Source of the DNA: a virus | Virus record (IMG/VR): IMGVR_UViG_3300045454_000056 | Location: 1 to 24,376 of that record | Length of the DNA stretch: 24,376 nucleotides | Reading direction: 5' to 3' (one strand) | Part shown: piece after piece, positions 1,648 through 23,948 of the stretch | How positions within the stretch are numbered: the stretch's first letter is position 1 | How the letters are laid out: each line of letters starts with the position of its first letter | Notes under the pieces: model-generated | Seen by the model: the letters and a program-made list of their open reading frames with translations, nothing else | What the model was told of the DNA's origin: nothing | Databases searched by the model: none | Program-made: the position numbers and the translations under genes

Positions 1648-1661
1648 TGGCGGAGGGAGAG
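1648..1661 (-). other. tRNA-Ser 3'-end remnant (possible attachment core)
   Basis: Read on the minus strand this is CTCTCCCTCCGCCA, which equals the last T-arm bases, acceptor strand, discriminator and CCA of a common type of bacterial tRNA-Ser. No tRNA body follows to the right, so it is not a gene. Tyrosine-recombinase islands that insert at tRNA 3' ends leave such a copy at the far end. If that is its origin, the element would extend to the right and the intact tRNA would lie beyond the window. Fourteen bases is short and chance is possible. Confidence 0.3.
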
Positions 1662-1788
1662 AGTCTGGCTGCGAACTCGCTCGGAGAAAGGCCGCGCACA
1701 GCAACGCACGGCCGGAGATTTCTGAGTATCGGCCCTTCCTGGAGCCGCCCCTGACCCGGAAAAACTGTCCCGCAGCATTGGGCGTATT

Positions 1789-9449: not shown

Positions 9450-10165
9450 CGGAGCCTGAACATCTCAGCCTGATCTATGGTGAAACCCGGATCGATTACC
9501 AGGTGGTCCGGCGGGCACGAAAAACCCTCGAGATTGCGGTAGAGCCGGATGCAACCGTGGTTATCGCGGCCCCGGAAGATGCAACCCTTGATGCAATCGA
9601 GGCCAAGTTGCGGAAGCGGGCCGCTTGGGTGACGCGTCAGCAGCGGTTCTTTGCCCAATTCCTGCCTCGGATCCCGCCGCGAAAGTTCGTGGCCGGGGAA
9701 ACCCATCTGTATCTTGGCCGGCAATACCGGCTGAAGGTCGTCCCGCACGTGCAACAGGCGGTCAAACTGATCCGCGGCTACTTCGTGGTCCAAACGCACA
9801 GGCCGCTCAGTCCCGATGTCACGCAGGAATTGGTCGAGGCCTGGTACCGCGAACGGGCGTATGTCAAATTTGCAGAGCGGATCGAGGTGAACCTCAAGCG
9901 ATTTGCGGATGGAGAGCAGCGCCGCCCCAAGGGACTGATCGTTCGTCAGCTCAAACAGCGCTGGGGCTCCATGTCACCCGGATCCCGTCTCATGCTGAAT
10001 CGCCGTCTGATCGAGGCCCCGATCGACGCGATCGATTATGTCATCACCCATGAACTTTGCCACGTCACCGAGCCGCATCATGGCGCGGCCTTCTACGATC
10101 TGCTCGAGCGGGTGATGCCGGACTGGGAGCGTCGGAAACTGCGACTCGAGCGGGCGATGGCCTGA
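9446..10165 (+). CDS. YgjP/SprT-like zinc metallopeptidase (DUF45)
   Basis: A 239-residue protein of the YgjP-like metallopeptidase family (DUF45, M48-related). The zinc site is visible: HELCH (His202, Glu203, His206) with a third ligand at His212 in EPHHGAAF. The segment before it (LKQRWGSMSPGSRLMLNRRL) is the family's conserved strand. It starts with GTG in a GTGA overlap with hsdR and is the last gene of the operon. Such genes often follow hsdR. Known relatives include SprT proteases that act on DNA-crosslinked proteins, and one could imagine control of HsdR by proteolysis, but the substrate is unknown. Confidence 0.85.
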   Translation: MTEPEHLSLIYGETRIDYQVVRRARKTLEIAVEPDATVVIAAPEDATLDAIEAKLRKRAAWVTRQQRFFAQFLPRIPPRKFVAGETHLYLGRQYRLKVVPHVQQAVKLIRGYFVVQTHRPLSPDVTQELVEAWYRERAYVKFAERIEVNLKRFADGEQRRPKGLIVRQLKQRWGSMSPGSRLMLNRRLIEAPIDAIDYVITHELCHVTEPHHGAAFYDLLERVMPDWERRKLRLERAMA

Positions 10166-10218: not shown

Positions 10219-10388
10219 CTATCCGATCCGCGCCTTCGCCGTCTTCCGGAACACCACGCTGCCAATACCGGTCAGCGCCAGCACAACGGTCAGGACGTCG
10301 GCCTGGGTCAGCCCTTGGGGCAAAACACCGAGCGCCGCGGCCAAACACCCCACAGGCTGCCGATGACGCCGGTCCAGATGGCCTCCAC
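10219..10388 (-). pseudogene. Frameshifted small membrane protein at the end of the head operon
   Basis: Minus-strand reading begins at GTG 10388 (EAIWTGVIGSLWGV) and continues after a one-base shift as LAAALGVLPQGLTQADVLTV to TAG at 10219-10221. The joined product would have about 56 residues with two hydrophobic stretches and a basic end (RKTAKARIG), holin-like in shape, though I cannot name a family. The break is at a GTTTGG, where one more T restores a single frame. It follows the head-closure stop by 45 bases. Sequencing error, or a start at TTG/GTG in the second frame, are alternatives. Confidence 0.4.
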
Positions 10389-10433
10389 TGGACTGCTACT
10401 TGAAGCCCTTAACCGGGTGTCGCGACTAAATGC

Positions 10434-10760
10434 TCAAGTGGCCGTACGGACAGCGGTCACCTCTACGCCCTCGTTGAGCCCCAGCGGCACCACTGAGGTT
10501 ATATTCCAGAGCCCGTCAGCGAAGCTGATGCGGTCCTCCACACTAAGCGCCAGCGTCTCACTATCCGCAAGCACCCGAAACGTCGCTGGCTGGGAAGCCG
10601 AAAGCTGTGCGGCTTCCCGGCGCTCGGCGCCCGTCCCCCAGATCACACCGGCCCAGACGATCGCGTAATCGGTCCAAGTCGCGATCTCCTCGCCATAATC
10701 GTCGATGATCACAGTCTTGCGCTGGAAGAGGAGTTTGCGATTACGGGGCCCGGCTTTCAT
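10434..10760 (-). CDS. Phage head-closure / head-tail joining protein
   Basis: A 108-residue protein of the phage head-tail joining family (SPP1 gp16 / lambda FII type), which caps the portal-connector channel and gives the tail its docking site. Features are the basic N-terminus (MKAGPRNRKLLFQRKT), the core (WTDYAIVWAGVIWGTGAERR) and the C-terminal strand (GLWNITSVVPLG) typical of this fold. Start ATG 10760 is chosen over an in-frame start at 10790 because GGGGAGAAGG lies just upstream and the family begins this way. It is the last intact head gene; no tail genes follow. It is separated from the connector by the oppositely oriented GIY-YIG gene, where phages normally have them adjacent. Confidence 0.8.
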   Translation of the reverse strand: MKAGPRNRKLLFQRKTVIIDDYGEEIATWTDYAIVWAGVIWGTGAERREAAQLSASQPATFRVLADSETLALSVEDRISFADGLWNITSVVPLGLNEGVEVTAVRTAT

Positions 10761-10827
10761 GATTGCCTTCTCCCCTCGTCGATGAAGCATTACGGCCTAA
10801 GCACTCACCCGATGACGGAGAACATCT

Positions 10828-11712
10828 GTGGAGCTTAAAGACCTGCTCGCAGGCCAGGGATATGACCCTACAGCGCAGAAGATCGTGCTTCTGCGCCATC
10901 GGCCCTATGAAGCGAACCTGGCTCGAGTGATGCCTTGGCTCATTTCGGAACGAGCGGATCTGTTTGAGGCATACCAGTCGGTTCCTGGTCGCCCGCAGAG
11001 TTCGCTCAGAAAGGCCGATCTGGTCATCAGCTTTCTTGGACTGCGTCCTGGCACCGCGCATTTCATCGGGCTCTACCAGGTAGGGGACCACCACCCGATC
11101 GACGTTGAAGGCTTTTGGGCCCAACCCGAAAATCAAGCTCTCCGCGAGCTGGGCTACGATGGCCTGACAGAAGAATATGCGGAGAAGGCTGGAACGGTCC
11201 TCCAGTTCGATTTTGAGCTCCTGCCCTTCTATCCCGAATGGCGAGGCAAGCTGGTGATCAACTTCCCGCCGCCCGAACGGTCATGGTTCCGCTGGTTGCA
11301 CAACGGCACCTTCCCGGTGCGTGCGATAAACGAAGAGAGTGCTTTTGCCGCCGCGCCCCCAACATGGTCGGAGATAGACCTGGGCTTCGCGGAACTCGCG
11401 GTGCTGCCTACATCGTGGCGGCAGCGGCTCGCTGAGTGGCGCGGGATTTATCTGGTTTTCGACGAGCGGGACGGAAAATCCTATGTCGGATCTGCAGCCG
11501 GCAGCGAGAACCTACTGGGCCGCTGGATGAGCTATGGTCAGGATGGCCACGGCGGAAACAGAGAACTGCGGAAGCGCGATCCGGGGTCGTTTCGCTTCAC
11601 AATCCTCGAGCGGCTCGCCCCCGACCTTCCAACGGACGAGGTCATTGCCCGGGAGGCAAACTGGAAGAGCCGTCTGCATACGCGCATGCCGTTTGGTCTC
11701 AACGCCAACTGA
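10828..11712 (+). CDS. GIY-YIG nuclease family protein inserted in the head operon
   Basis: A 294-residue protein. The C-terminal 90 residues form a GIY-YIG nuclease fold: GIYLVF (Gly206-Ile207-Tyr208), YVGSA (Tyr219-Val220-Gly221), LLGRW with the catalytic Arg, and Glu in REANWKSRL. The first 200 residues contain conserved-looking segments (VLLRHRPYE, FPPPERSWFRWLHNGTFPV) but no domain I can name. The start is GTG 10828, eight bases after CGGAG. It points against all surrounding head genes and lies between connector and head-closure protein. It could be a homing-type gene, a defence or helper-interference cargo, or host-derived. Lone proteins of this build occur in many bacteria; the function is unknown. 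Confidence 0.8.
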   Translation: MELKDLLAGQGYDPTAQKIVLLRHRPYEANLARVMPWLISERADLFEAYQSVPGRPQSSLRKADLVISFLGLRPGTAHFIGLYQVGDHHPIDVEGFWAQPENQALRELGYDGLTEEYAEKAGTVLQFDFELLPFYPEWRGKLVINFPPPERSWFRWLHNGTFPVRAINEESAFAAAPPTWSEIDLGFAELAVLPTSWRQRLAEWRGIYLVFDERDGKSYVGSAAGSENLLGRWMSYGQDGHGGNRELRKRDPGSFRFTILERLAPDLPTDEVIAREANWKSRLHTRMPFGLNAN

Positions 11713-11736
11713 GCCCTCCACCGTGCATCTGCGCTG

Positions 11737-12279
11737 TCACGCACCCCGGCGGCAGTTGCACAGCAAGCTGTCGAGGCTGGTCCAGTCCCCGGCCTTGGCA
11801 TGCTCGCGCCGATCGAAGCTGTCGGCGATGAAGAGCAGCATGGCGTGGAGCACATCGTCAGGCGGCGCGGCGCCGACCGAGGCCGTGAGCGTAATCCGCG
11901 AGCCGGGCTGAACCGTTGGCCATGTCTGACCCGCTTTCAGGACAATGGCCGCGTCGAGATTGTCCGAGCGCAACTCGTAGACCGAGGATGGCAGCGTCTG
12001 GGTGCTACCAGCTGGATCCACATATTCGATCGACGTCACGGAATTCACCGGCGCGAACGGCAGCCGGCCCAGGTCTGTGAAGCTGTCGCAGTGCGCCACC
12101 ATCGTCCGCTCTGCGAACGCCACACCGCAATACGCCTCGGCATGCGCCCGCGCAGAGGCGATATAGAGATCCAGCGTGTCGTCCTCGTCGGTGCCAATCA
12201 CACGGCACTGGAGCTTGGCCTGGGCGAGGCTGACCGGCTCGACCGCAGGCGCGACGGGGGCAACCGGGTACCAGCTCAT
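11737..12279 (-). CDS. Phage head-tail connector, HK97 gp6-like
   Basis: A 180-residue gp6-like adaptor that forms a ring under the portal and links head to tail-joining proteins. It shows the family opening PVSLAQAKLQCRV, then DEDDTLDLYIASARAHAEAY, a central strand region (LPFAPVNSVTSIEYVDPAG) and a C-terminal helix (AMLLFIADSFDRRE). ATG 12279 overlaps the end of the preceding small gene by four bases. The C-terminus (SLDSLLCNCRRGA) matches the usual ending of this family, where one Arg-rich tail reaches into the portal interface. It is intact, and the GIY-YIG gene begins convergently 24 bases after its stop. Confidence 0.85.
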   Translation of the reverse strand: MSWYPVAPVAPAVEPVSLAQAKLQCRVIGTDEDDTLDLYIASARAHAEAYCGVAFAERTMVAHCDSFTDLGRLPFAPVNSVTSIEYVDPAGSTQTLPSSVYELRSDNLDAAIVLKAGQTWPTVQPGSRITLTASVGAAPPDDVLHAMLLFIADSFDRREHAKAGDWTSLDSLLCNCRRGA

Positions 12280-12476
12280 GGCGCCGCCTTTTTCCTGACT
12301 GGAGCACGCCGCTCGGGCGGCGGCTTCACCGCATGCTCCACCTTCACTTCGGCGACCGGCACGGCAAAGCCCGCCTTAATCAGGCGCACGGCTTCATCCT
12401 GAGGGAACTCGCGCTCATCGCCTGGAGCGAGCGCGTAGTGCGGACCGGCAAGGCCCATCGTCATCCTGATTTTCAT
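12276..12476 (-). CDS. Small protein between capsid and connector genes
   Basis: A 66-residue protein from ATG 12476, preceded by AAAAGGAGCC, which favours this start over one at 12554. The N-terminal 45 residues (APGDEREFPQDEAVRLIKAG) have a pattern common in short proteins coded between HK97-type capsid and gp6 genes: a small strand domain with a Gly-Asp turn and a helix ending LIxAG. The tail (PPPERRAPVRKKAAP) is basic and disordered. A structural or assembly role in the head is inferred from position only. Its stop overlaps the connector ATG. Confidence 0.65.
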   Translation of the reverse strand: MKIRMTMGLAGPHYALAPGDEREFPQDEAVRLIKAGFAVPVAEVKVEHAVKPPPERRAPVRKKAAP

Positions 12477-12550
12477 GGAAGCAGGCTCCTTTTCGGGGAT
12501 GGCGCGCACGTTCAGGTAAAGGGCGGACCCGAAAGCCCGCCCTTCCCAAA

Positions 12551-13801
12551 TCACGCCTGGATGAGGTGCTTGATGGCGGCAGTGTCGCCCAGCTCGCCAT
12601 CGAAGCGGATCAGGCCCGCGATGCCCATGTCAGGCCAGAAGCGCTCGCGCAGAACGCCGATGACGGGAGCGCCGACCTTGCGGACGAAGTACTTGCCGAA
12701 GTCGCCGAACAGGACCGACTTCTGCCCAGTCGCTACGTTCGGCACCGCCTGGTTGACGTGATAGCGATAGCCCAGCAGCGTGCCCGGTGCGCCCTGCTGC
12801 ACATTGCCCATCTGCCACAAATAGTTGCCGTTCCCGTCCTTCAGCTTTCGAATTACCGAAAGGGTGGTGTCGTTGAACATGAAGGCGACCTTCGGGCTGG
12901 TGCGATATGCCGGATCGACCGAATGGATGAGATCAATCAGCTCATCCCCGGTGACCGCGGCCGCTGCCGCTGCCGTCTTGCCCAGCGTTGAAGCAGTGAC
13001 GACGCCGTGGGGTGCGGACGAGCCGGTGCCGACTGTCAGCTGGGTATTGGCGATGCGGCCGAGGCGTTCGCCGAGTAGCTCGCCAAGCAGGCTCTCCATG
13101 TTGAAGATGGAGTCCTGATCGAGCTCCCAGCTCCACCGGATGAACCCGGTGTCGAACGCATAGGCATCGAGGCTCTTCTGGCCGAACACCACGTCCTTGC
13201 CGCCGTCGTCGGTAAGCGCCGCGGCTTCGGTATGCGCCTCGGCCGTCTGGGCCGTGTCATCCACGGTCGGCACCTTGATCGGGTTGCCGCCCGATGTGAC
13301 CATCTCGGTCGCGACCTCGGGATCGTACATCGGCCCCCAAGCCTTCATCGACTTGACGATCTGGTTCGCGAGCTCGGTAGGGACGGTAAAGCCGCCCGCG
13401 GTGGTCGTACCGGCGGTCTGCGCCCGGAACTCGGCCCGGCCCTGGTTGAGGACGGCACGCTCTTCCGGCGACAGTTCATCGGACATGCCGCACAGGACTT
13501 TGGCGAAGACGGTGCGATATTCGATCGCCGCGCCTTCATCCTGGCCGCGCGCCTCCACGTCGCCCGGGGTAGGACGCATTCTGGCGCGGGCTTCCTCGGT
13601 GCGCTGCTCGAGCCGCGCGAGAGACTCCTCGCGGTTGATCTGCTTCTCGAGCCGATCATACTCCGCCATTGCCGTATCGTGCTGGCTCTCCAGCTGGGCG
13701 GCACGGGCTTCATCGGTAGCGGCGCTGATCTGGTCGAGACGCTCGCGCGCTTCAAAAACGATCTGCTCTTGACGCTCCCGCAGGTCTTTCAATTGGGGCA
13801 T
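12551..13801 (-). CDS. HK97-family major capsid protein
   Basis: The shell protein of the icosahedral head; 416 residues. Residues 1-about 100 are a charged coiled coil (LKDLRERQEQIVFEARERLD) acting as the delta/scaffold domain cleaved by the adjacent protease. The mature part starts near GTTTAGGFTVPTELANQIV and has the E-loop region (AALTDDGGKDVVFGQKSLDA) and the A-domain/P-domain end (GDFGKYFVRKVGAPVIGVLR). ATG 13801, with AAGGA upstream, is chosen over an upstream in-frame start at 13870 that would read through a terminator. A strong terminator-like hairpin lies just before this gene, so expression may be set separately from the protease. Confidence 0.93.
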   Translation of the reverse strand: MPQLKDLRERQEQIVFEARERLDQISAATDEARAAQLESQHDTAMAEYDRLEKQINREESLARLEQRTEEARARMRPTPGDVEARGQDEGAAIEYRTVFAKVLCGMSDELSPEERAVLNQGRAEFRAQTAGTTTAGGFTVPTELANQIVKSMKAWGPMYDPEVATEMVTSGGNPIKVPTVDDTAQTAEAHTEAAALTDDGGKDVVFGQKSLDAYAFDTGFIRWSWELDQDSIFNMESLLGELLGERLGRIANTQLTVGTGSSAPHGVVTASTLGKTAAAAAAVTGDELIDLIHSVDPAYRTSPKVAFMFNDTTLSVIRKLKDGNGNYLWQMGNVQQGAPGTLLGYRYHVNQAVPNVATGQKSVLFGDFGKYFVRKVGAPVIGVLRERFWPDMGIAGLIRFDGELGDTAAIKHLIQA

Positions 13802-13817
13802 GGGTATTCCTTCCAAT

Positions 13818-13840
13818 AAAAAAGCCCGCGCGAGGCGGGC
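13818..13840 (-). terminator. Terminator-like hairpin immediately before the capsid gene
   Basis: On the minus strand GCCCGC, CTCGC loop, GCGGGC, then TTTTTT: a 6-bp GC-only stem with six T, 17 bases before the capsid ATG. It lies after the protease stop (13867). As an intrinsic terminator it would stop most readthrough from the packaging genes unless antiterminated; it may also mark an RNA end or processing site that protects capsid mRNA. Confidence 0.75.
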
Positions 13841-13866
13841 CGTTCGATTGGGCTTGGGGCTTGGCC

Positions 13867-14463
13867 TCAAGCTTTACTCACCAGCCTGCGGGTTCGCAGG
13901 TCGATGGAAACCTTGCGGGCGAGCACGCGGTTGGCGGCTGCCCGGAAGTTGTGCCGGCGCTTCTCCCGCCGCGCGGATTCAAGCGAGCGCAGCGCAATGG
14001 ACGTATCATCATAAGCCGGGAAGGCGACGGCACTGACCTCGCGCAGGTCCACAGCTAGAATCGTGCGGGTCGGCATATCGCCGGTCTCGTCCCACTCCTG
14101 GCGGGTGACGACAAAACCGAACGACATGCCGGAGATGTCGCCGCGGGCGATCAGCGTCGCAAGGTCGCGCCCGTCCTGCGTGTCGGGCAGATCAATCTCG
14201 ACCGCGAGACCGACATCATCCTCGGAAAGCCGCAAGGTGCCTGCCGTCGTGCGACCGATAACTCGCCCGCTGTCGTGATCGATCAATGCGCGCACATCGC
14301 CGCTGATCGTGTCGCGGAACGCGCCCGGCGCAACGATCTCCCGGAACTGGCCAGCAATGTCGGCCGCAGCGCCGAACACCGCCGCGTAGCCGGCAAGGGT
14401 GCGCTGCTCGTCCTGCTGGCGTACATTGAGCGGCCGGACCAGCGCGCGTCGTTCCATTGTCAT
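13867..14463 (-). CDS. HK97-family prohead protease
   Basis: A 198-residue serine protease (family S78) that assembles inside the prohead, cleaves the capsid delta domain and then itself. His63 in LIDHDSG and Ser114 in ISGMSFGF are the expected catalytic residues. The opening (RTLAGYAAVFG) and GAF segment (IVAPGAFRDTI) are typical. The C-terminal part from about 160 is basic and is probably the self-cleaved tail. The ATG overlaps the portal stop by four bases, and the stop lies 65 bases before the capsid start. Confidence 0.92.
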   Translation of the reverse strand: MTMERRALVRPLNVRQQDEQRTLAGYAAVFGAAADIAGQFREIVAPGAFRDTISGDVRALIDHDSGRVIGRTTAGTLRLSEDDVGLAVEIDLPDTQDGRDLATLIARGDISGMSFGFVVTRQEWDETGDMPTRTILAVDLREVSAVAFPAYDDTSIALRSLESARREKRRHNFRAAANRVLARKVSIDLRTRRLVSKA

Positions 14464-15701
14464 GCCGTGTCTCCGTTCGGTGCCGCAGCGCCGTTCGCGC
14501 CGTCCGTGGTCACATTGCTGCCCAGCGGCACTGTTGCGCCCTGAATGTAGAGCTGATCGCCTTTCGGGCGTGGTGGCCGGTTCTCCAGCGCCCGGGCTTC
14601 ATCGGGCGTGAGGATGGCGTTCTGGATCCCTTGAGCGAGCCCGGCCATGCGGGCGGCAAAGTCGCCGCGCATCAGCCCATCCAGATTGTGCTCGACGTAA
14701 CGAGCACCGCCGCGCGGGCCGAATAGCTTTAGATTGAGCTCCTCCTCGAACGCCTTCGCCCACTGCGCGATCAAATGTTTGACGAGATGCAGGTCCTGCT
14801 GCTCGGTGTTAGAGAATGTGCCGTGAGTGAGATCCTGCAGGAACACCGGCGGCAGGTTGTAGACCCGGGCGATCTCCTCGATCTGGAACCGGCGCGCCTC
14901 GGTCATCTGGCCCTTGGCTGGATCGAACCCGACCTGCTTCAACTCATGGCCGGGCGGCATCGGGAACACCGGCTTGCGGCTTGCCTTGGCGGCCTCGATC
15001 GCGCGGTGAATGTCGCCCATCGCCCGCTTCATCGCTTCAGGGCCCTGCGGCAGCGGACCTGACAGCGCGAGCGGGGGCACGCCGCCACCGGCAAAGAAGT
15101 CGCCGGCATAATTGCCCATGGCCAGCGCGAGTGCGATCGCCTTGGCGCCGTTGACGACAGGGCTGTAGGAGCCGAGCTGGTCTCGCTTTAGAAGATACGG
15201 GATGTCGATGACGTCGGCCGCCGCATAGGGCTCGGCCTTGCCGTCGAAGGCGTAGAGCTTGCGCCCCCCGACCCGTTTCACCTTGGTGGCCGCCGGATCC
15301 ATCGGCCAGATTGCGACGATGTTGGCACCGCTGCGTTCGATCCACGACACGCCGCGCCCGCCGGTGAAGACCTGCTGCCACATGTATTTGCGCCAGCCGA
15401 AGCTGGTCCATTCCGCATTCGGCGCTTCATTTAGCAGGCGCTGGATCCCGCCGCGGACGCGCTCCGAGCCATCGCCTTTCACCCGGAAAGCATGGAGCGG
15501 CAGGTTCGCCATGCTCGACGACAGGAAGGTGACCGCTGCCGAGACCGCCGGCACCGTGAGCGCACTGTCGATCGTTACGGTGGGCAGGTTGCCAGATTGG
15601 ACGCCGAAGAAGGCCAGGAAGTTGTCCGAGCTCACCGCCACCGCCGGGTTCTCGATCGAGGACCGCTGCTCGAGCCCGAGCCAGTCGCGCCAGCCCATCA
15701 C
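14460..15701 (-). CDS. HK97-family phage portal protein
   Basis: A 413-residue portal subunit; twelve form the ring at one head vertex through which terminase pumps DNA. Family marks are TVPAVSAAVTFLSSSMANLP near 50-70, the WxxxY wing segment (FGWRKYMWQQVFTGGRG), and the stem/crown signature ARVYNLPPVFLQDL with GTFSNTEQQ. The C-terminal 30 residues are Ala/Gly/Pro-rich and flexible. ATG 15701 overlaps the end of the large terminase by four bases. It is intact and of usual length. Confidence 0.95.
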   Translation of the reverse strand: MMGWRDWLGLEQRSSIENPAVAVSSDNFLAFFGVQSGNLPTVTIDSALTVPAVSAAVTFLSSSMANLPLHAFRVKGDGSERVRGGIQRLLNEAPNAEWTSFGWRKYMWQQVFTGGRGVSWIERSGANIVAIWPMDPAATKVKRVGGRKLYAFDGKAEPYAAADVIDIPYLLKRDQLGSYSPVVNGAKAIALALAMGNYAGDFFAGGGVPPLALSGPLPQGPEAMKRAMGDIHRAIEAAKASRKPVFPMPPGHELKQVGFDPAKGQMTEARRFQIEEIARVYNLPPVFLQDLTHGTFSNTEQQDLHLVKHLIAQWAKAFEEELNLKLFGPRGGARYVEHNLDGLMRGDFAARMAGLAQGIQNAILTPDEARALENRPPRPKGDQLYIQGATVPLGSNVTTDGANGAAAPNGDTA

Positions 15702-17551
15702 GCCACCAGCCTGAAATCGGGATCATCCCAGGGAGAGACGGCCAAGGGCACAAAGCTGCTCATTGCAGCGCCCATTGCCATGCACAGCGCCACCGCGCAG
15801 TCGATCTTGTTCACAGCGCGCTCCTTGGTCAGCCAGTGATTGCCCCAGCGATCTTCGTCCGTGACCGCCGACATGATGGCGGAAACCAGCACCGGGCTGC
15901 GCTTCAATCGAAGTCGCCGCTCGAGCAGCGCTTCCTCGACCAGCCGGACCGAGCCCGGCATCCACAACCCTTCGCTCATCCCGCCGGCAGGTTTGCCGCG
16001 CTTTGTCCCGCCCTGCGGGTGTTCGACAAACGGGATCGCAAGCCCCAGCTCGGCCACCTCGTCCTCCAGCCGTCGGAAGGCATAGCGGTCGTAGGCGGCG
16101 GCACTGATCTCGAACATACGGTCATAGTCGGCGAGCGCCTGGGCCACCTGCCGCAGGCTGATGTTCTCGCCTCTGGGCGCATGCAGGAACCCGTCCCGCA
16201 CCCAGGTTGCATAGGGCGCCTTGTCGCGCAGCTCGCGCGCGGCAAGCGTGTCGCCCGGCGTCCAGGCCTCGACCCAGCCATCGAACAGCGGCTTGCCGGT
16301 ATGTTCGCCGGACTCGACCACGCCCGTCTGCACGATGGCAGCCAGGGCGGTGATGTCCCGGTTCTGCGACAGATCGATCCCCAGCGCCGCACGGGCGCCG
16401 GCATGATCGGCGATCTCAAAATCAACGAGCGCGGGTTCCACCGTCGCCCGAGTCATCCAGGCGGTTTCGGCATCCGTCCAGACGCAAAAATGTAGGCGCA
16501 GGATGCCGTTCAACTGGCCCGGGATCGCCTTCGCCTGCGCGACGGTCTCGGTGAGATACTGCTCGGTGATGGTGACGCCGAGCAGAGGGTTGGCCTTAAT
16601 CCAGCAGGCCGGATTGGTGAGCGGGTCATCCCCGTCGTCGAGCGCACAGACGTAGCTGAAGGTCGTGTCGTCGATGACCTCACCGAGGTAAGTGGGGTCC
16701 GTCACCGCATCGTTATTGCCGGCCGCAACCTTTACCGCATGCTCATGCTCCTCCCAGGCGACGCTGTTCCGATTGCTGCCGGAGTTGGTGATCATGAACA
16801 GCAGCGGGTCCCGTCGAAACTTGAACCCGCGCTCCAGCATCTCGATAATCGACCGGTCGGGCAGCTCGTGGATCTCGTCAGCCAGGACGAAATAGGGCCG
16901 TGGGCCCGAGCCGGTCCTGCCAGTGTCTCGTGAAACCGGGCGAAAGAAGGACCCGGACTCGTGATGGGCGATATTGAACTCGCGGCCTTCACCGCCGGAA
17001 AACTCCAGCCGCTTGGCCAGAGCCGGTGATTGCCGCACCATCTTGACGGCGTCCGCGAACAGGATGCCGGCCTGCTCACGTTTTGCAGCGGCGGCGTAAA
17101 TCTGCGCACCGGCCTCGCTACACGCCGTCATTCCATAGAGGCCGATGCCGCCCGCAACCGGGCTTTTCCCATTGCCCTTGCCCTGCTCGATATAGGCCCG
17201 GCGGAAGCGGCGGCGGCCGTCCTTCCGCTTCCAGCCGAAAACCGAGCCGATGATGAAGGCCTGGCTCGGCTCCAGCCGGAAGGGCTGGCCTTCAAACTGC
17301 CCCTCGGAGAGCTTGAGCACCTCCTCGAAAAAACCGAATGCATGATCAGCTGCCTCGGCATCGAAGCGGATGCCATCGGTGCGATTGAGGTCGTCGAGAT
17401 GCCGCCGGCAGGCGTTGCGGACGTGCGGGCCAGCGACGATCTCTCCGGCAACAACTGCCCGGGCGTAACCGGTGGTACGGTCAGCCGAAGTACCGTTCCG
17501 CCGGGTCTTCGTGTTCCTCCGGCGTCTCGGCGGCGATGCGGGTTCTGGCAC
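15698..17551 (-). CDS. terL: Phage terminase large subunit
   Basis: ATP-driven packaging motor and headful/cos nuclease; 617 residues. The N-terminal ATPase has Walker A QGKGNGKS (123-130) and Walker B with catalytic Glu (YFVLADEIHE, Asp225-Glu226). The C-terminal RNase H-like nuclease begins at GIDLSQNRD with metal ligand Asp393. The start is GTG 17551; it overlaps the terS end by 71 bases in another frame, longer than usual, but no later start precedes the conserved YARAVVAGEIVAG segment. The first 20 residues are Arg-rich. It belongs to the terminase_1 group that accompanies P27-type small subunits. Confidence 0.95.
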   Translation of the reverse strand: MPEPASPPRRRRNTKTRRNGTSADRTTGYARAVVAGEIVAGPHVRNACRRHLDDLNRTDGIRFDAEAADHAFGFFEEVLKLSEGQFEGQPFRLEPSQAFIIGSVFGWKRKDGRRRFRRAYIEQGKGNGKSPVAGGIGLYGMTACSEAGAQIYAAAAKREQAGILFADAVKMVRQSPALAKRLEFSGGEGREFNIAHHESGSFFRPVSRDTGRTGSGPRPYFVLADEIHELPDRSIIEMLERGFKFRRDPLLFMITNSGSNRNSVAWEEHEHAVKVAAGNNDAVTDPTYLGEVIDDTTFSYVCALDDGDDPLTNPACWIKANPLLGVTITEQYLTETVAQAKAIPGQLNGILRLHFCVWTDAETAWMTRATVEPALVDFEIADHAGARAALGIDLSQNRDITALAAIVQTGVVESGEHTGKPLFDGWVEAWTPGDTLAARELRDKAPYATWVRDGFLHAPRGENISLRQVAQALADYDRMFEISAAAYDRYAFRRLEDEVAELGLAIPFVEHPQGGTKRGKPAGGMSEGLWMPGSVRLVEEALLERRLRLKRSPVLVSAIMSAVTDEDRWGNHWLTKERAVNKIDCAVALCMAMGAAMSSFVPLAVSPWDDPDFRLVA

Positions 17552-17963
17552 TGGGCGTCATCCCGAATTCGGCGGCATAGCGCATCATGTCCGCAGCAGC
17601 CTTGTTGGCGGTGCCGACGAGCGGGTTCTGGATGGCGTTGCCGTTGCTGGTCTTGATCATCAGGCCGCCGGTCAGCTGATCCTTCTCAGCCATTTTGGCG
17701 ATGGCACGCTCGGCCTGGACCCATCGGCCGTAGGCTTGGGCGTAAGCGGCGAGTGCGGCGCGATCGACTTCGGACAGCAGCCCGATCCGGTGCAGCCAGG
17801 TGGCCACGCGGTTCCACTCCTCAAGCGCATCGGCGGTAAGGTGCGGCGGCGCGGACGGCAGCGCGGTGATGGTGCGGGGCTCCCTGGTGTTCAGCGGGCG
17901 TTTGCCGCGGTTGCCCTCGATGAGCTTCAGCCGTGTCGGTTTGGGTTTGGTGCCGGGTTTCAC
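17481..17963 (-). CDS. terS: Phage terminase small subunit, P27 family
   Basis: A 160-residue DNA-recognition subunit that picks the packaging site and hands DNA to TerL. The P27-family opening (KLIEGNRGKRPLN) and the PPHLTADALEEWNRV helix are plain, and the C-terminus (ETPEEHEDPAERYFG) is the usual ending. GTG 17963 is chosen over ATG/GTG candidates up to 17996 because AAGGGA lies about eight bases upstream and the family starts with a short basic tail. It is separated from the methyltransferase upstream by an oppositely oriented thermonuclease-like gene whose ATG lies 18 bases away. Confidence 0.9.
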   Translation of the reverse strand: MKPGTKPKPTRLKLIEGNRGKRPLNTREPRTITALPSAPPHLTADALEEWNRVATWLHRIGLLSEVDRAALAAYAQAYGRWVQAERAIAKMAEKDQLTGGLMIKTSNGNAIQNPLVGTANKAAADMMRYAAEFGMTPSARTRIAAETPEEHEDPAERYFG

Positions 17964-17981
17964 GAGGGATTCCCTTCCTCT

Positions 17982-18452
17982 ATGAGTACCGACCACTCAG
18001 CCCAGCGAGGTCCCACTATCTTCGGATTGCTTTTGTTCGCCGCCGTGGCGACCGCCCCATCAACCGGCGAAACTTTCACCTGCACGCCGACCAGGGTCTG
18101 GGATGGCGATGGTCCGGTATGGTGCGCCGAAGGTCCAAGAATCCGCCTGTCAGGTATCGCCGCGCGTGAGATGGATGGTTCTTGTCGCCCTGGTCATCCC
18201 TGTCCTCGGGCCTCAGCCGAGGAAGCCCGCGATGCGTTGGTAGAGCTGATCGGCCGTCGTGTTGGCGTCGCCCGGGAGGGCCACATCCTTGTAGACGGGC
18301 CCGCCTTGCGCTGCCGCTCAGAAGGAAGCGCTGGTGGGTCGCGAACTGCTGCATGGTGCGTGTCGCGGAAGTCCGGAGACCTTTCCTGCGCGATGATCAG
18401 GGGCGGGTGGGCATTACGCTGGGATCGATATTGGCGGCAGCACCGGTGCTGA
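17982..18452 (+). CDS. Thermonuclease (SNase)-like protein, antisense within the packaging operon
   Basis: A 156-residue protein from ATG 17982. A hydrophobic N-terminus (TIFGLLLFAAVATAPS, 12-27) suggests a signal peptide or anchor. The SNase-like fold is read from VWDGDG (Asp41, Asp43), RIRLSGI (Arg53, Arg55), Glu63, GPALRC and RTAAWC, ending GGWALRWDRYW. The usual IDAPE is IAARE here: Ala60 replaces a metal-binding Asp and Arg62 the Pro, so activity may be reduced or lost. Its 3' end overlaps the methyltransferase C-terminus by 56 bases on the other strand. The role is unknown; an exported nuclease or packaging-linked function is possible. No strong ribosome site is seen. Confidence 0.7.
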   Translation: MSTDHSAQRGPTIFGLLLFAAVATAPSTGETFTCTPTRVWDGDGPVWCAEGPRIRLSGIAAREMDGSCRPGHPCPRASAEEARDALVELIGRRVGVAREGHILVDGPALRCRSEGSAGGSRTAAWCVSRKSGDLSCAMIRGGWALRWDRYWRQHRC

Positions 18453-19683
18453 TCTGCTTCGCAACATCCTCAAATGTGCAGCCATTGTGAGACAATATGG
18501 CAGCAGCACCGGTGAAATTCTGCCAGCGCGTGATAGCCACATCGACATAGGCTGGGTTGAGCTCGAGCGCGTGAACCGCGCGGCCTGTCATCTCGCCCGC
18601 GATGATAGTGGTGCCCGATCCGGAGAAAGGCTCGTAGATCGCCTGTCCGGGGCTGGAGTTGTTCTCGATCGGCCGCTTCATGCATTCGACCGGCTTTTGC
18701 GTGCCGTGCCCGGTCTCGCTCTTCCTGGGCTTGGGAATATGCCAGATCGTCGTCTGCTTGCGATCGCCAGCCCAGTGGCCCTTCGCGCCTTTCCTGACCG
18801 CATACCAGCACGGCTCGTGTTCCCAGTGATAGTCGCCGCGGCTCAAGACCAGCTGGCCCTTGTCCCAGATGATCTGCGAGCGGAGCTGGAGGCCGCACGC
18901 AGTGAGGCTATCTCCAACGACGCCGGCGAAAAGCCCGGCGTGCCAAACATAGGCGACATCGCCGGGGAACAGTGCCCAGGCGTCACGCCAGTCGGCATTG
19001 TCGTCGTTCAGAACCTTGCCCTTGGCAGAGCCTGACGCGGCGACACCGGCTTGCTCGCGCCAGGCTGGATCGTACTCGACGCCGTAGGGCGGATCGGTCA
19101 CCATTAGGTGCGGCGTTACTCCGTTCAGCGCCTTTGCTACGGTGTCGGCATCAGTGCAGTCGCCGCAGACCAGCCGGTGCTTGCCGAGAATCCAGACATC
19201 GCCTGCCTGAGCCACTGGATCGGCCGGAACCTCGGGCACCTCGTCAGGATCTGTCAGACCCTCGGTCTCCTCCGCCAGCAGCCCCGCCAGTTCGTCCTGT
19301 GAGAAGCCGGTGAGCCCGAGATCAAAGTCAAACGCCTGCAAATCCGTCAGTTCGATCCGAAGCAGATCGGCGTCCCATCCAGCGTTTAGCGCCAGCTTGT
19401 TATCAGCGAGGATGTAGGACCGCTTCTGAGCTTCGGTCCAGCCGGCCGCGACCATCACCGGGATCTCCGTCAGGCCGAGTTTGCGCGCGGCAAGTACTCT
19501 CCCGTGACCTGCAATCAGCCCGCCGTCCTCATCGACGAGCACCGGTACGGTCCAGCCCCATTCGCGGATCGATGCAGCTATTTGCGCCACCTGGTCGTCG
19601 GTATGGGTACGCGCGTTACGGGCGTAGGGCACCAGTGCCGAGACGCTTCTGCGCTCGACCTTGTCAGCCGGCCAATTCATCAT
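18397..19683 (-). CDS. ParB-like domain / adenine DNA methyltransferase fusion
   Basis: A 428-residue protein. The N-terminus (about 8-110) is a ParB/Srx-like nuclease domain with GLIAGHGRVLAARKLG (GHGR 59-62). The C-terminal methylase has DPPYG (197-201) before FSGSGTT (353-359), the beta-class order, with SAM contact ALELNPAYVDVAI. It probably methylates adenine in a short target, protecting element DNA from restriction or timing packaging. The start ATG 19683 (or 19680) is chosen over an in-frame start at 19755; GGGGGT precedes it. This fusion is common next to terminase genes in alphaproteobacterial phages. It is a solitary methylase with no paired nuclease other than the HNH upstream. 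Confidence 0.9.
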   Translation of the reverse strand: MMNWPADKVERRSVSALVPYARNARTHTDDQVAQIAASIREWGWTVPVLVDEDGGLIAGHGRVLAARKLGLTEIPVMVAAGWTEAQKRSYILADNKLALNAGWDADLLRIELTDLQAFDFDLGLTGFSQDELAGLLAEETEGLTDPDEVPEVPADPVAQAGDVWILGKHRLVCGDCTDADTVAKALNGVTPHLMVTDPPYGVEYDPAWREQAGVAASGSAKGKVLNDDNADWRDAWALFPGDVAYVWHAGLFAGVVGDSLTACGLQLRSQIIWDKGQLVLSRGDYHWEHEPCWYAVRKGAKGHWAGDRKQTTIWHIPKPRKSETGHGTQKPVECMKRPIENNSSPGQAIYEPFSGSGTTIIAGEMTGRAVHALELNPAYVDVAITRWQNFTGAAAILSHNGCTFEDVAKQISTGAAANIDPSVMPTRP

Positions 19684-19776
19684 GTGACCCCCGGTCGTTA
19701 ACTCGCGGATGCGTGAAGTTTGGGTGGGCGGCGGTTTCCTGCTGAAACAGACCAACGATGAGATCGCCCCCCGGGG

Positions 19777-20043
19777 TCATTCGGCCGGCCAGCCCTCGAT
19801 GCTGACGGGCTCAACCCGGCGATGTCCGAACTGCTCGGCCGTGCGTGCGTTGTGACACGAGGCGCATAAACAGCGGACATTGGAATCATCGTCACTGCCA
19901 CCCTTGGCGAGCGGCACGATGTGGTCGGGCACCGTTGCCGGTGTGATCTTTCCCTTTGCTCTGCAATCCCGGCAGAGCGGCTCCATCTGAAGTCGACGCT
20001 GCCGTTGCTCCACCGCCCGACGCCCCCGCAGTCGTTCGACCAT
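19777..20043 (-). CDS. Phage HNH endonuclease
   Basis: An 88-residue HNH nuclease. CRDC and CASC are the zinc-binding pairs, and DHIVPLAKGG followed by NVRCLCASCHNART is the nuclease core with catalytic His in DHI. ATG 20043 with GGAGG nine bases upstream is chosen over a start at 20094. In HK97-type phages and capsid-forming satellites, an HNH protein encoded beside terS stimulates TerL cutting at cos sites, and the position here (first gene of the late block) fits. It is preceded by a promoter and a leader hairpin. Confidence 0.9.
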   Translation of the reverse strand: MVERLRGRRAVEQRQRRLQMEPLCRDCRAKGKITPATVPDHIVPLAKGGSDDDSNVRCLCASCHNARTAEQFGHRRVEPVSIEGWPAE

Positions 20044-20058
20044 GGGCGCGCCTCCAAC

Positions 20059-20083
20059 GAAAAAGCGCCCGAAGCACGCGGGC
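20059..20083 (-). terminator. Leader hairpin (possible attenuator) before HNH
   Basis: On the minus strand GCCCG, seven-base loop, CGGGC, then GCTTTTT, between the promoter and the HNH ribosome site. An alternative stem pairs GGGCGC (plus 20065-20070) with GCGCCC (plus 20044-20049), placing the GGAGG ribosome site in the loop. The two folds exclude each other, as in attenuators. The stem is short, so termination may be weak. Confidence 0.45.
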
Positions 20084-20115
20084 TGCGGACGCAATTACAA
20101 TTTCACTATTTCGGA

Positions 20116-20144
20116 ACTCTAACTCCCCGCGACCATTCCGTCAA
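20116..20144 (-). promoter_or_regulatory. Candidate late-block promoter
   Basis: On the minus strand TTGACG (20139-20144), exactly 17 bases, TAGAGT (20116-20121): a good sigma-70 promoter in an AT-rich stretch between the 187-residue gene and HNH. Transcription would start near 20109 and cover HNH, methyltransferase, terminase, portal, protease and capsid genes. Confidence 0.55.
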
Positions 20145-20213
20145 AAGATTTTGCCTTTATATATCAGATATCTAGTTGCTTCGAAAACATTAGAAGCAGC
20201 GCGTAGCGAAGCT

Positions 20214-20777
20214 TCATTGGCTGACAATCCCGAACAGTTCAGCCAGCACATCAAGACCGCTGCGTAGACGATCGAGCCTGCCGTCGGTCCATTGCAGGTC
20301 TTCTTCCGCACAGGCCACGTCACGAACCAGCCGCGAAGGCTTCATTCCTGCCGCACACTGCTGCTCCCGGTCACAGCGATTCAGCGCAGCCGTGGCTTCA
20401 GCATATCTCCGCCGCAGCCGATCGAGCAGCCATGGGTCGGGATCGGCCGATGAGCCGCCGAAGATCCCTTCGCGATCGAGCAGCCCGGTCACCGATCGCG
20501 GGTGCGGCAATGGCAGGCCACGCACCACGTTATGATGATGGACGAGGGCGGCGAACTGCTCACCAGCCTGATGCTGCTCTGGGGTAATCGCCTCCCGAAA
20601 TGCCAGTCGACCCAGCGCTGTTCCCAGCCGGTGATCGCGGGCCTGTGACCTGGTGACGCCGTGGTGCCTCCGGCGCGCGTCGAGGACGGTGGAGAGGACC
20701 TCGTGTTGCAGGGCGTCTGGCATTCGCTTGCCCGAGGGATATCGCTTTCCGGGTTTCCGCTTGCGGCCGCGCGACAT
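20214..20777 (-). CDS. Hypothetical phage-type protein with basic N-terminus
   Basis: A 187-residue protein from ATG 20777, two bases after the preceding gene's stop. The first 20 residues (SRGRKRKPGKRYPSGKR) are strongly basic, a start shared by uncharacterised proteins near replication genes of alphaproteobacterial phages. The rest is helical, with many Arg, His and Leu residues and no motif I recognise. Nucleic-acid binding is plausible from charge alone. It is the last gene of the early block before the promoter at 20116-20144. Confidence 0.65.
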   Translation of the reverse strand: MSRGRKRKPGKRYPSGKRMPDALQHEVLSTVLDARRRHHGVTRSQARDHRLGTALGRLAFREAITPEQHQAGEQFAALVHHHNVVRGLPLPHPRSVTGLLDREGIFGGSSADPDPWLLDRLRRRYAEATAALNRCDREQQCAAGMKPSRLVRDVACAEEDLQWTDGRLDRLRSGLDVLAELFGIVSQ

Positions 20778-20779
20778 GG

Positions 20780-20968
20780 CTACCTCCTTGCCGCGGGAGA
20801 TTGCCCGTAGAGCTTCTCGCCCAGCTGCCGGACGAGCTCGCGTTCAGGCCAGGACAGCCGCGGGTCGGCAGCCGAGATGGCCAGCACGCCGGTTTCCCTC
20901 CAGCCGTCGCGCTTGATGTCGTCTGCATTGCGGCGCTCGCCGCCATAGCCACGGGGGTGCCACTTCAT
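20780..20968 (-). CDS. Small conserved phage-type hypothetical protein
   Basis: A 62-residue protein from ATG 20968, which overlaps the stop of the 54-residue gene upstream (ATGA). It contains DDIKRDGWRETGVLAISAAD followed by DPRLSWPERELVRQLGEKLY; the pairing of an early DGWRE segment with a WPERELV helix recurs in small genes beside primase genes of alphaproteobacterial phages. No catalytic motif is present. Function unknown. Confidence 0.6.
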   Translation of the reverse strand: MKWHPRGYGGERRNADDIKRDGWRETGVLAISAADPRLSWPERELVRQLGEKLYGQSPAARR

Positions 20969-21129
20969 CGTGCCACCTCACCGCCCACCGCAAGGCGAGA
21001 GGAAGTGCCGGGAGTGCCGGATGTGCCGGGTTCTCCCTTATAGGCGTTACGCGCGTGCGCATGTGCGCGCATGACGGTGATAACGAAGCGATCCGGCACA
21101 TCCGGCACTTTCAGGAAAACACGCGACAT
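20965..21129 (-). CDS. Very small ORF between primase and the 62-residue gene
   Basis: A 54-residue ORF from ATG 21129 (four bases after the primase stop) to TGA 20965-20967, overlapping the next ATG. The tight spacing supports a gene. The sequence begins SRVFLKVPDVPDRFVITVMR and has a Gly-Thr repeat (GTSGTPGTS). The repeats in the protein follow from GTGCCGG-type DNA repeats at both ends, so the DNA may matter as much as the peptide. No family recognised. Confidence 0.45.
   Translation of the reverse strand: MSRVFLKVPDVPDRFVITVMRAHAHARNAYKGEPGTSGTPGTSSRLAVGGEVAR
21005..21108. repeat. GTGCCGG repeats and 16-bp inverted repeat
   Basis: Three direct GTGCCGG copies with a 9-bp period start at 21005, 21014 and 21023; two more lie in inverted orientation at 21093-21108. 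The block 21014-21029 is a perfect 16-bp inverted repeat of 21093-21108 with 63 bases between, which include an alternating GTGCGC-AT-GTGCGC stretch. Lying directly behind the primase-helicase gene, it is a candidate iteron-type origin; coding repeats are the simpler explanation for the 9-bp period. Confidence 0.55.
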
Positions 21130-21132
21130 CGA

Positions 21133-23499
21133 TCAGAACTCCGTGCTGGTTGAGGTGGGGTGGGAGCGAAGGGCAATTCCGCGGAATCCCTTGGCCTGGC
21201 TGCTGCGCCACCGCTCAAGGCCGCGCCCGATCAGGGTTTCGGCGAAGCGCTTGTTCGAGCCGGCATATTCGCCGTTGTTCTCCGCCCAGAGCTTCCAGTC
21301 TGCGAACAGCGCGTTTGATGCCTCGGTGAACTGATTCCCAAGCTCGCAGCGCTCGTCGATCCAGCGCCCGATCGCATCTTCAGCTTCGAAATACTCGTCG
21401 GTCGCGGCCATGACGGCGGCAGGCGGCTGGAGCCCGACCCGCTGCCACTGGAGACAACCTTCCAGGGCCCAGGCGAGAATACCGTCTCGTTCGGCAAGCA
21501 GACGCTCAGGCAGAGTCTTGTCGCGCTTTGCCGGCGGAATGGTGATCGTGAACGGCACCATGTGCAGGCGCCGACGCATGGCTTCGTCGACATTGCGGAT
21601 CGACGGCTTGTGGTTCCCGACGATCAGCAGTTTGAACTGCGGGATGAACTCGAAGAAGTCCTGACGCATGAAGCGGGCGGTGATCTTGTCGCCGCCGGTC
21701 AGCGCCTTGAGCTTGCTCTCGGCCCAGCGGCTGCCCTGTTCGGTCTCGATGGCGGTGACGACGCGGGCGCCGCGCAAGCCAGCCATGTCGGTCGGGTGGC
21801 GGTCGCCGTGGCTTGCCATGAACATGTCCATGGCCGCCACAGCTGCATAATCGCCCAGGAGCGTGGTCAGCGTATTAGCGAATACCGATTTGCCGTTCGC
21901 GCCGGTGCCGTAGAGGAAAAACAGCGCATGCTCGGTGGTGACGCCGGTCAGGCAGTAACCGGCCATCCGCTGGAGGTAGGACTGGAGCTCGAGGTCGCCG
22001 CCAGTGACGGTAGCCAGGAACTCACGCCAGATGGCGCAGGAGCCCTGAGGCGATGCACTGGTGATCTTCGTCATTGCGAGTGTCGGGTCATGCGGGCCGG
22101 TCTTGCCGCCCCGAAGGTCCACCAAGCCTGCCGGAGTGTTCAGCACCCACGGGTCTCGGTCCCAAACCTCGGTGCCTTCTGCATGGCGACGATCCGCACG
22201 CGCGATCCGCTCGACCGCTGCAATCGTCGACGCCGATGAAATCTTTGCCCGCACCTTCGGATCGGCATCGGCCGCCGCGGTCCTGCAGACGCCTCGGGCG
22301 AGATCATAGGCAAGCAGCGTGCTTTCGCGCCGCCACACTGTTCCAGTCCAGGTGAGCCACTGGCCCCAGGCGGCGACATACCGCCAGTGGTTACCGTGGA
22401 CCCGCGAGAACTCCTCTGCGAGCGCGTCCTCGCTCAGCGCTGACGAAATAGCGCCGTGCGTGTTGTCGTTGGTTGCGTTTCCCAGAGCGTCGGCGGTGCT
22501 GGCGCCGTCATCACCGCGCCGGTTGCGATCAAGCTTCCAGATCTTGCCGGCCTCTCGGCGAAGCCGGTCTTCAGGCCACGGCGGATCGATCTGGGCGAGA
22601 TTGAAGTCAACCATCTCATTCCAGGCCTGATCAGCTGTTACATGACCGTCTCGGCAGCGGCGGACCCAATAGCCGATGATCCGGCTCAGCGCCTCGAAGC
22701 GCGTGGTCTCGTCGGCACCGCCCTCGCGGATCCTCTTCCCGAACAGAGCGGTGGCGTTGCCACCCGTTGCGTGCTTTCCCGGGCCGGGTTCCGGTAAGGC
22801 AAGACCGTCGAGCGGCGGCATCGCTTCGACTGCATCGACCAGATCAGCCAGGTGGAAATCCCGGTCCCGCTGATGCAGGATCTCGACGAGCCGCGGCGTT
22901 CCGGACTTGTTGTGGATCGTGCCGGCGACACGGATGGGCTGGTGAGCCGATCCGAAAGCGGGGTCACCACCGACCTTCAAAGCAAGGAGACGCCTTGTGC
23001 GGCATAGGACGGCAATGTCATCGCCTGCCACCGCTTCGGAGAGGCGCCAGTAGAGGTGCAGCTTGCGCTGACCCTCGGCCGTCATGCCTCCGGACGCTAT
23101 CTCGAGGCTGGGTTCGCCCAGACTCCGGGCAAGGTGGTCCCGCTTGGCGCCGATGTCGCCTTGGTCGAGATCAACCAGGATCGTCTGCATCTGCTGTACA
23201 TCGCTGGCCCCGGCTTGGCCCGCTTCAGCGACGGTGCCGGGAACGACGAAAACGGCGAGTCCGGATTGCACTGCCGAACAGGCGAAATCGTGAACGGGAT
23301 TGAGCGCCCTAGAGTCCGCGGGTAGCCAGACGTTCCTCGGCCTGGCCTGCTCACCGTGGCCCTTCTCGCCTATGCCGCGCACGGGGATCAGGCCCTCGCA
23401 ATGGCCGAATACCATCTCGAGGTAACGCCCGATCTGCCCGGCGTCGGGAGCGCAAGCAGCCGGCGTCATTACCTGGCCAGAACAAGGATCAGCAGCCAC
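21133..23499 (-). CDS. P4-type DNA primase-helicase
   Basis: A 788-residue replication protein. The N-terminal part looks like an archaeo-eukaryotic-type primase: ILVDLD (Asp110, Asp112) and SGG with KLHLYWRL (His148). A PriCT-like segment and a D5_N region follow (about 270-480). The C-terminal SF3 helicase has Walker A GTGANGKS (531-538), with ALTGGDKITARFMRQDFFEF and LLIVGNHKPSIRNVDEAMRR as B' and C motifs. It would start and unwind replication of the excised element. GTG 23499, eight bases after GGAG, is chosen; ATG 23469 is the alternative. Primases of this type are typical of satellites such as P4 and of islands, and also occur in some phages. Confidence 0.92.
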   Translation of the reverse strand: MAADPCSGQVMTPAACAPDAGQIGRYLEMVFGHCEGLIPVRGIGEKGHGEQARPRNVWLPADSRALNPVHDFACSAVQSGLAVFVVPGTVAEAGQAGASDVQQMQTILVDLDQGDIGAKRDHLARSLGEPSLEIASGGMTAEGQRKLHLYWRLSEAVAGDDIAVLCRTRRLLALKVGGDPAFGSAHQPIRVAGTIHNKSGTPRLVEILHQRDRDFHLADLVDAVEAMPPLDGLALPEPGPGKHATGGNATALFGKRIREGGADETTRFEALSRIIGYWVRRCRDGHVTADQAWNEMVDFNLAQIDPPWPEDRLRREAGKIWKLDRNRRGDDGASTADALGNATNDNTHGAISSALSEDALAEEFSRVHGNHWRYVAAWGQWLTWTGTVWRRESTLLAYDLARGVCRTAAADADPKVRAKISSASTIAAVERIARADRRHAEGTEVWDRDPWVLNTPAGLVDLRGGKTGPHDPTLAMTKITSASPQGSCAIWREFLATVTGGDLELQSYLQRMAGYCLTGVTTEHALFFLYGTGANGKSVFANTLTTLLGDYAAVAAMDMFMASHGDRHPTDMAGLRGARVVTAIETEQGSRWAESKLKALTGGDKITARFMRQDFFEFIPQFKLLIVGNHKPSIRNVDEAMRRRLHMVPFTITIPPAKRDKTLPERLLAERDGILAWALEGCLQWQRVGLQPPAAVMAATDEYFEAEDAIGRWIDERCELGNQFTEASNALFADWKLWAENNGEYAGSNKRFAETLIGRGLERWRSSQAKGFRGIALRSHPTSTSTEF

Positions 23500-23546
23500 A
23501 GAAGGTTCTCCAGCGGGAGGACGGCAAGTTGGTGGATGAAGCGCAC

Positions 23547-23750
23547 TTACCGTGCGCCGATTTGCCGCCGCGGGGTGCTGGCCCGGAGCTGCTCGGCCTC
23601 AAACGCCTCGACGTCCTCAAGGCGGTAGACGACGCGGCCGCCGAGCTTGATGAAATGCGGACCTTCCCCCGTCCAGCGCCAGCGCTCGAGAGTGCGGTGG
23701 GAAATATTCCAGCGGTCAGCCAGATTGATCTGATTGAGGTGCTTGGTCAT
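23547..23750 (-). CDS. AlpA/excisionase-like helix-turn-helix regulator
   Basis: A 67-residue MerR/AlpA-type winged-helix protein: NLADRWNISHRTLERWRW is the helix-turn-helix and GPHFIKLGGRVVYRLEDVEA the wing and following helix. ATG 23750 with GGAGTG eight bases upstream is preferred to GTG 23759. It is followed after 47 bases by the primase. In P4 and phage-inducible islands AlpA switches on the element and may act as excision factor; this position, first in the leftward operon, fits a master activator. Three TGTGACA copies lie upstream (23861-23944). Confidence 0.85.
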   Translation of the reverse strand: MTKHLNQINLADRWNISHRTLERWRWTGEGPHFIKLGGRVVYRLEDVEAFEAEQLRASTPRRQIGAR

Positions 23751-23948
23751 GAAAGTCACTCCGTAAAACCGAGATCCTCCGGGCTTCGAAGAGCCCCTTG
23801 GAAGTGCCTCAATTTTCGCGGGAATGACCGTCAGCCGATATAATCAGCGTCGAAGTTTGTTGTGACAGCAGCAGGTTATGGAATGGCTGAATCCGCCGAT
23901 GACCATGACTGCGTTTGTGACATCGACACGCTTTTGATGTGACAGTGC
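23751..23948. promoter_or_regulatory. Control region upstream of alpA
   Basis: A 198-base gene-free stretch. TGTGACA occurs three times on the plus strand (23861-23867, 23916-23922, 23938-23944), spaced 55 and 22 bases, roughly whole helical turns. An AT-rich patch near 23838-23845 could be a -10 in either direction, but no good -35 accompanies it. Likely contents are the alpA promoter and binding sites for its activator or for a recombinase; which is not shown by sequence. Confidence 0.45.

Follow-up and report, generated by a model that had tools for sequence, protein, structure and literature searches.

How does a stretch of viral DNA come to carry head and packaging genes without a tail: as a satellite that borrows tails, as the remnant of a phage that lost its own, or as an incomplete copy of an ordinary phage? 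The window analysed here, i.e. the whole IMG/VR record IMGVR_UViG_3300045454_000056 (24,376 bases), raises this question, and we think it rather probable that it contains the greater part of a mobile phage satellite, one that lives in a sphingomonad, forms capsids and lacks a tail.

Gene content of the window

Genes were called by Pfam and PHROG profile searches, complemented with PADLOC for the defence genes. These searches recovered each of the genes from AlpA to Hc1 named in a preliminary description of this DNA, at or near the place given there, all open and on the minus strand; they detected no tail or tape-measure gene in the window, as had been stated. The features are the following:

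1..1003, plus strand: C-terminal part of UmuC, cut by the window start (Pfam IMS_C and DUF4113; PHROG 1268, positions 155–424 of 425)
1013..1381, plus strand: 122-aa gene (92% nucleotide identity to Sfan)
1648..1682, minus strand: right-end att-like motif of the element family (29/35 positions match)
1878..10165, plus strand: defence cargo, comprising a 201 aa gene, HsdM, RhuM, HsdS, HsdR and a YgjP-like protein (Pfam; PADLOC)
10219..10384, minus strand: holin-like gene remnant (85–90% nucleotide identity to intact copies in close relatives)
10434..10760, minus strand: Hc1 head closure protein, last head gene (PF05521, PHROG 25)
10828..11712, plus strand: inserted GIY-YIG-like endonuclease gene (PF01541, E=0.001, below cut-off; PHROG 26160)
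11737..12279, minus strand: Ad1 head–tail connector (PF05135, PHROG 442)
12276..12554, minus strand: small head-module gene, conserved in relatives (PHROG 2616)
12551..13870, minus strand: HK97-type major capsid protein (PF05065, E=9e-51)
13867..14463, minus strand: prohead protease, S78 (PF04586)
14460..15701, minus strand: portal (PF04860)
15698..17551, minus strand: TerL (PF20441 and PF03354)
17481..17996, minus strand, likely start 17963: TerS, P27 type (PF05119)
17472..18452, plus strand: open frame with the conserved opposite-strand gene adjoining terS (PHROG 18798, relative's protein)
18397..19755, minus strand: ParB_N-domain N6/N4 DNA methyltransferase (PF01555; PHROG 498, E=2.5e-145)
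19777..20094, minus strand: HNH endonuclease (PF01844, PHROG 589)
20214..20777, minus strand: conserved gene, common with tailed relatives (PHROG 15385; 45–51% in relatives)
21133..23499, minus strand: primase–helicase (PF08706 and PF19263; PHROG 6088)
23547..23759, minus strand: AlpA-like regulator (PF12728, PHROG 66)

The record is cut about 0.6 kb upstream of alpA and, at its other end, inside umuC. Profile searches found no integrase in the window, the record ending before any integrase; given the break so close to alpA, the absence of an integrase or a repressor carries no meaning, and the integrase of the relatives described below sits in the part of the element that is missing here. In these relatives, ad1 and hc1 are adjacent, without the GIY-YIG-like insert, and the two minus-strand ORFs drawn across this region of the window are probably spurious. 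The inserted gene resembles a homing endonuclease. Between the methyltransferase gene and terS, the conserved gene appears from its sequence to lie on the plus strand (within 17472–18452) and not on the minus strand: its product shares 85% amino acid identity with that of Swen_C2, a Sphingobium wenxiniae locus, and the substitutions show a three-base rhythm. We had also considered that the conserved block upstream of terS might be a cos site, an idea that was dropped because the substitutions follow this coding rhythm. Note that this opposite-strand gene is conserved in tailed and tail-less members alike.

Related loci without tail genes

A capsid search led to related loci in Sphingobium cupriresistens, S. 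faniae, S. wenxiniae and Sphingopyxis witflariensis, the S. wenxiniae genome holding two of them (Swen_C2 and Swen_C6); such elements are present in 3/94 Sphingobium and 1/80 Sphingopyxis genomes. As read from 40–70 kb of context, their gene order begins with tRNA-Ser, cargo, a 127-aa gene, a large serine recombinase, DUF2924 and further cargo, continues with AlpA and the primase (which vary between copies), a RuvC-like gene in some, HNH and the methyltransferase, then with TerS, TerL, portal, protease, capsid, Ad1 and Hc1, and ends with an endolysin-like CHAP/NlpC protein, a holin-like protein and defence cargo. From tRNA-Ser to the right-end motif, tail-less elements measure about 31.6, 37.4 and 39.2 kb and the tailed element G132 (see below) about 47 kb, the crossover points being approximate. 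The same tail-less order, which the preliminary description had proposed to look for in related genomes, recurs in every related locus readable past the head, and AlpA and/or the primase are found wherever the upstream part is present. The Sphingopyxis witflariensis contig ends at ad1, so that the absence of a tail is not demonstrated there. In S. cupriresistens (L125–L126), the portal lacks everything before residue 186 and no gene upstream of it is left, the genes from capsid to holin-like being kept; decay thus also happens in this lineage. A search for the empty integration site with the Swen_C2 flank returned only weak, partly multi-copy homologues. Separately, in Swen_C6 (L120/L272) and Switf (L124) the tRNA-side arm recurs about 3.3 kb further in, the two copies enclosing an apparent P-type ATPase and an apparent MerR-like gene, as in tandem accretion at the same site.

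Tail content follows portal identity. Among the loci compared, none of those with a portal at least 88% identical contains tail genes; this set comprises four loci readable beyond the head and three contigs too short on that side to decide, and its matches are to endolysin and Hc1 alone, both also in the reference set. In the four relatives readable past the head, Hc1 is followed by the endolysin/holin-like pair and then by defence cargo. Nearly all loci with a portal at most 75% identical and several kilobases downstream show tail genes. Four loci with portals at 51–71% and no tail matches (L003, L029, L108 and L196) were inspected as tail-less candidates and rejected, as they look tailed, with other tail types; similarly, ST899-OXA48phi17.2, an 18-kb TerL relative considered as a satellite, has a tail. 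The tail-less loci form one clade in both the portal and the TerL trees (support 100/100). The missing tail is no quirk of this one record, as the lack extends to all the relatives with a portal at least 88% identical, as far as their sequence reaches. In a quick capsid tree, the capsids of the tail-less elements are scattered over three positions among those of tailed phages, requiring at least three label changes. Separation from phage capsids has been taken as a sign of satellites (PMC13230959); by this sign, the capsid does not separate, but the portal and TerL do. As an observation apart, the TerL relative in G242 (L181–L182) is split by an in-frame TAG into two open pieces.

These data bear on whether the window comes from a complete phage, with its tail genes in the portion missing from the record. 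The cuts upstream of alpA and inside umuC leave room for this, but the three relatives with both ends readable hold no recognised tail gene between tRNA-Ser and alpA, where they carry the recombinase, DUF2924, and repair, metal or other cargo. The tail module expected of an intact temperate siphophage is absent, and we regard a complete phage as the least probable of the readings considered here.

Lysis genes, defence cargo and the left side of the window

The head genes had been said to end directly at a defence operon; this proved incorrect, as a holin-like remnant (10219–10384) stands between Hc1 and the operon. It is 5′ truncated and carries a 2-base frameshift, the intact gene of relatives encoding 64 aa, and its sequence identifies it as the scar of a lysis cassette lost in the window. 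The absence of lysis genes therefore holds for the window, where none is intact, but not for the family, four relatives carrying a CHAP/NlpC-type endolysin-like gene followed by the holin-like gene. The latter was called from a weak PHROG match (E=0.015), two hydrophobic stretches seen by eye and its position following the endolysin gene.

PADLOC assigns the defence cargo of the window to type I MTase/REase and PDC-S05, and shows that the defence systems occupying this spot differ between the window, Swen_C2, Swen_C6 and Scup; Sfan has type I R-M genes. Further left, a 35-base motif that marks the right end in six relatives occurs in the window with six mismatches, compared to nine in the best of 200 simulated windows. 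No convincing long direct repeats were found at the element ends, which fits a serine recombinase. Next to the motif, the 122-aa gene has a match in 1/94 Sphingobium genomes, that of Sphingobium faniae, where it is found immediately within the left boundary of the tail-less element. We examined whether the window spans the attP junction of an excised circle. The motif match is significant, and the gene beside it belongs to a left end in another element, but the intervening sequence is unlike the known left arms. The left side of the window may thus be an excised circle, a tandem insertion or another flank; the UmuC fragment is probably element cargo.

Tailed relatives and a candidate origin

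Two full tailed prophages, G132 and G226, belong to the same family and share with the tail-less elements most of what lies outside the head: serine recombinase (95–96%), DUF2924 (93%), TerS (87–88%), TerL (77–81%), methyltransferase (81–89%), endolysin (93–94%) and holin-like protein (98–100%). In contrast, portal and protease are only 28–29% identical, the capsid is another one, and a tail block with tape measure, neck, tail terminator and fibres precedes the lysis genes. Note that in G132 (L166/L276), an apparent arsenic-resistance operon, read by eye, lies between tRNA-Ser and the recombinase. The head of the tail-less elements resembles instead that of Rhizobium phage 16-3 and its relatives, which share the order of the head genes as far as Hc1 and have a portal at 62%, but a complete tail and a different terminase. 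In Swen_C2, the gene directly after Hc1 corresponds to the last 102 aa of a 193-aa gene that precedes the lysis genes in G132 and G226; other tail-less copies keep less of it, and the edges of the scar differ between copies.

From these comparisons we infer that head exchange with a 16-3-like phage and tail loss lie behind the lineage. L253 and L259 join a G132-like TerL and tail to a 16-3-type portal (57–58% identical to the window's), so that head exchange may have preceded tail loss. Tailed serine-recombinase phages would have taken a 16-3-type head and lost their tail, defence genes then following the head module. The fuller scenario, in which a tailed family independently gave rise to the sphingomonad tail-less lineage by a swapped-in head, by continuing exchange of capsid and head-closure genes with tailed phages to fit different helper tails and by addition of defence genes next to the head module, is one we propose tentatively, giving it slightly less than even chances.

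The same scars feed the main rival reading, namely a long-kept but immobile tail-deleted prophage: what is left of a tailed phage after the loss of its tail would survive as a chromosomal defence island whose head genes are rarely or never used. The truncated 193-aa gene in Swen_C2 and the holin-like remnant in the window are deletion scars, the S. cupriresistens copy is half lost and the defence cargo is strong, all as expected from such grounded prophages. Against this, the genes for head and packaging keep open reading frames and evolve under strong purifying selection throughout the clade, intact homologues akin to tailed-phage genes have taken the place of capsid and Hc1, and near-identical element DNA occurs in two genera at different tRNA genes, as detailed below. 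On balance, we consider grounded prophages rather unlikely.

Selection, movement and a possible helper

Among tail-less copies, dN/dS is about 0.04–0.11 for terS and terL, 0.03–0.14 for portal and 0.05–0.12 for hc1 (dS of these four genes 0.2–2.0), and 0.14–0.33 for capsid. Part of this low signal could stem from tailed ancestors, should the tails have been lost late and in separate events. The preliminary description had offered a prophage with deleted tail genes as the alternative to a satellite; this appears partly true as history, but the long-term selection on the head genes argues for function. Tail-less heads under selection would also suit a gene-transfer-agent-like or heads-only host device, a reading we hold to be very unlikely: the recombinase, own terminase, primase and AlpA better fit a self-packaging mobile element, as does the patchy spread among Sphingobium and Sphingopyxis genomes.

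Movement is indicated by the Swen_C6 and Sphingopyxis witflariensis elements, which are 95–97% identical over 15.6 kb, the rpoB genes of their hosts being 81.9% identical, and which sit at different tRNA-Ser genes. Judged from these sequences, the comparison shows recent movement of at least the left part of the element. The S. wenxiniae genome also contains a full siphoprophage (C3), with a TMP_3-like tape measure and a related head (portal 60%), which is a possible helper for the co-resident elements. The window Hc1 is 76–87% identical to that of three tail-less relatives; the Swen_C2 Hc1 is only 31% identical to the window's, and matches that of the C3 prophage at 62% over 82 aa and those of metagenomic tailed phages at 59% over 115 aa. 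This likeness, a single case, fits matching of Hc1 to a tail.

Taken as a satellite, the element would work as follows, its excision, capsids and use of helper tails being predicted from gene content. Once induced, perhaps through a siphophage that is resident in the same cell or enters it, the element would excise and replicate with its own primase; its own terminase would cut its DNA and pack it into its own heads; a helper tail would dock on Hc1, where the head module ends; and particles would exit through the helper's lysis functions (window) or aided by the element's own endolysin/holin-like genes (relatives).

Comparison with known satellites

PICIs carry AlpA and a primase and use a tyrosine integrase. 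Capsid-forming PICIs (cf-PICIs) such as EcCIEDL933 are defined, in the wording quoted in PMC10690885 and PMC13230959, as having their own HNH, TerS, TerL, portal, protease, capsid and connectors and no tail, tails being taken from a helper; helper tests are reported in PMC11389934. The window likewise has its own HNH, TerS, TerL, portal, protease, capsid and connectors and lacks tail genes, as do its relatives, and it encodes an AlpA-like regulator and a primase. The differences are that the capsids of the tail-less elements are mixed with those of tailed phages instead of forming a separate clade, and that the relatives have a large serine recombinase near tRNA-Ser, a size of 32–39 kb, endolysin/holin-like genes and large defence cargo. 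The initial assignment to a cf-PICI in an alphaproteobacterium thus holds for the anatomy, which works like that of a cf-PICI, but is at odds with the lysis pair, the recombinase, the size and the non-head modules common with tailed prophages. Because the capsids form no separate clade, the relatives have lysis genes and the recombinase differs, we do not claim membership in known cf-PICI clades; the sequences point to an independent origin, in which tailed phages of sphingomonads exchanged their head and lost their tail. The cf-PISP satellite-plasmids of Vibrio and the Streptomyces satellites MulchRoom and MiniFlayer are likewise described as encoding a capsid of their own but few tail genes or none (PMC13230959, PMC10690885); they have plasmid or virulent-phage lifestyles. 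We found no description of capsid-forming tail-less elements of sphingomonads in the open-licence papers searched.

How phages turn into satellites has yet to be settled (see the discussion in PMC11389934). In the present family, tail-less elements stand side by side with full tailed phages, with recombinases up to 96% identical and near-identical lysis genes. The phage-to-satellite step and the matching of Hc1 to helper tails are directly testable, one genome holding two elements and a possible helper prophage. The finding would extend capsid-forming satellites to sphingomonads, with defence cargo: the window belongs to a rare family of sphingomonad mobile elements that, going by their anatomy, probably borrow tails from other phages in order to travel.
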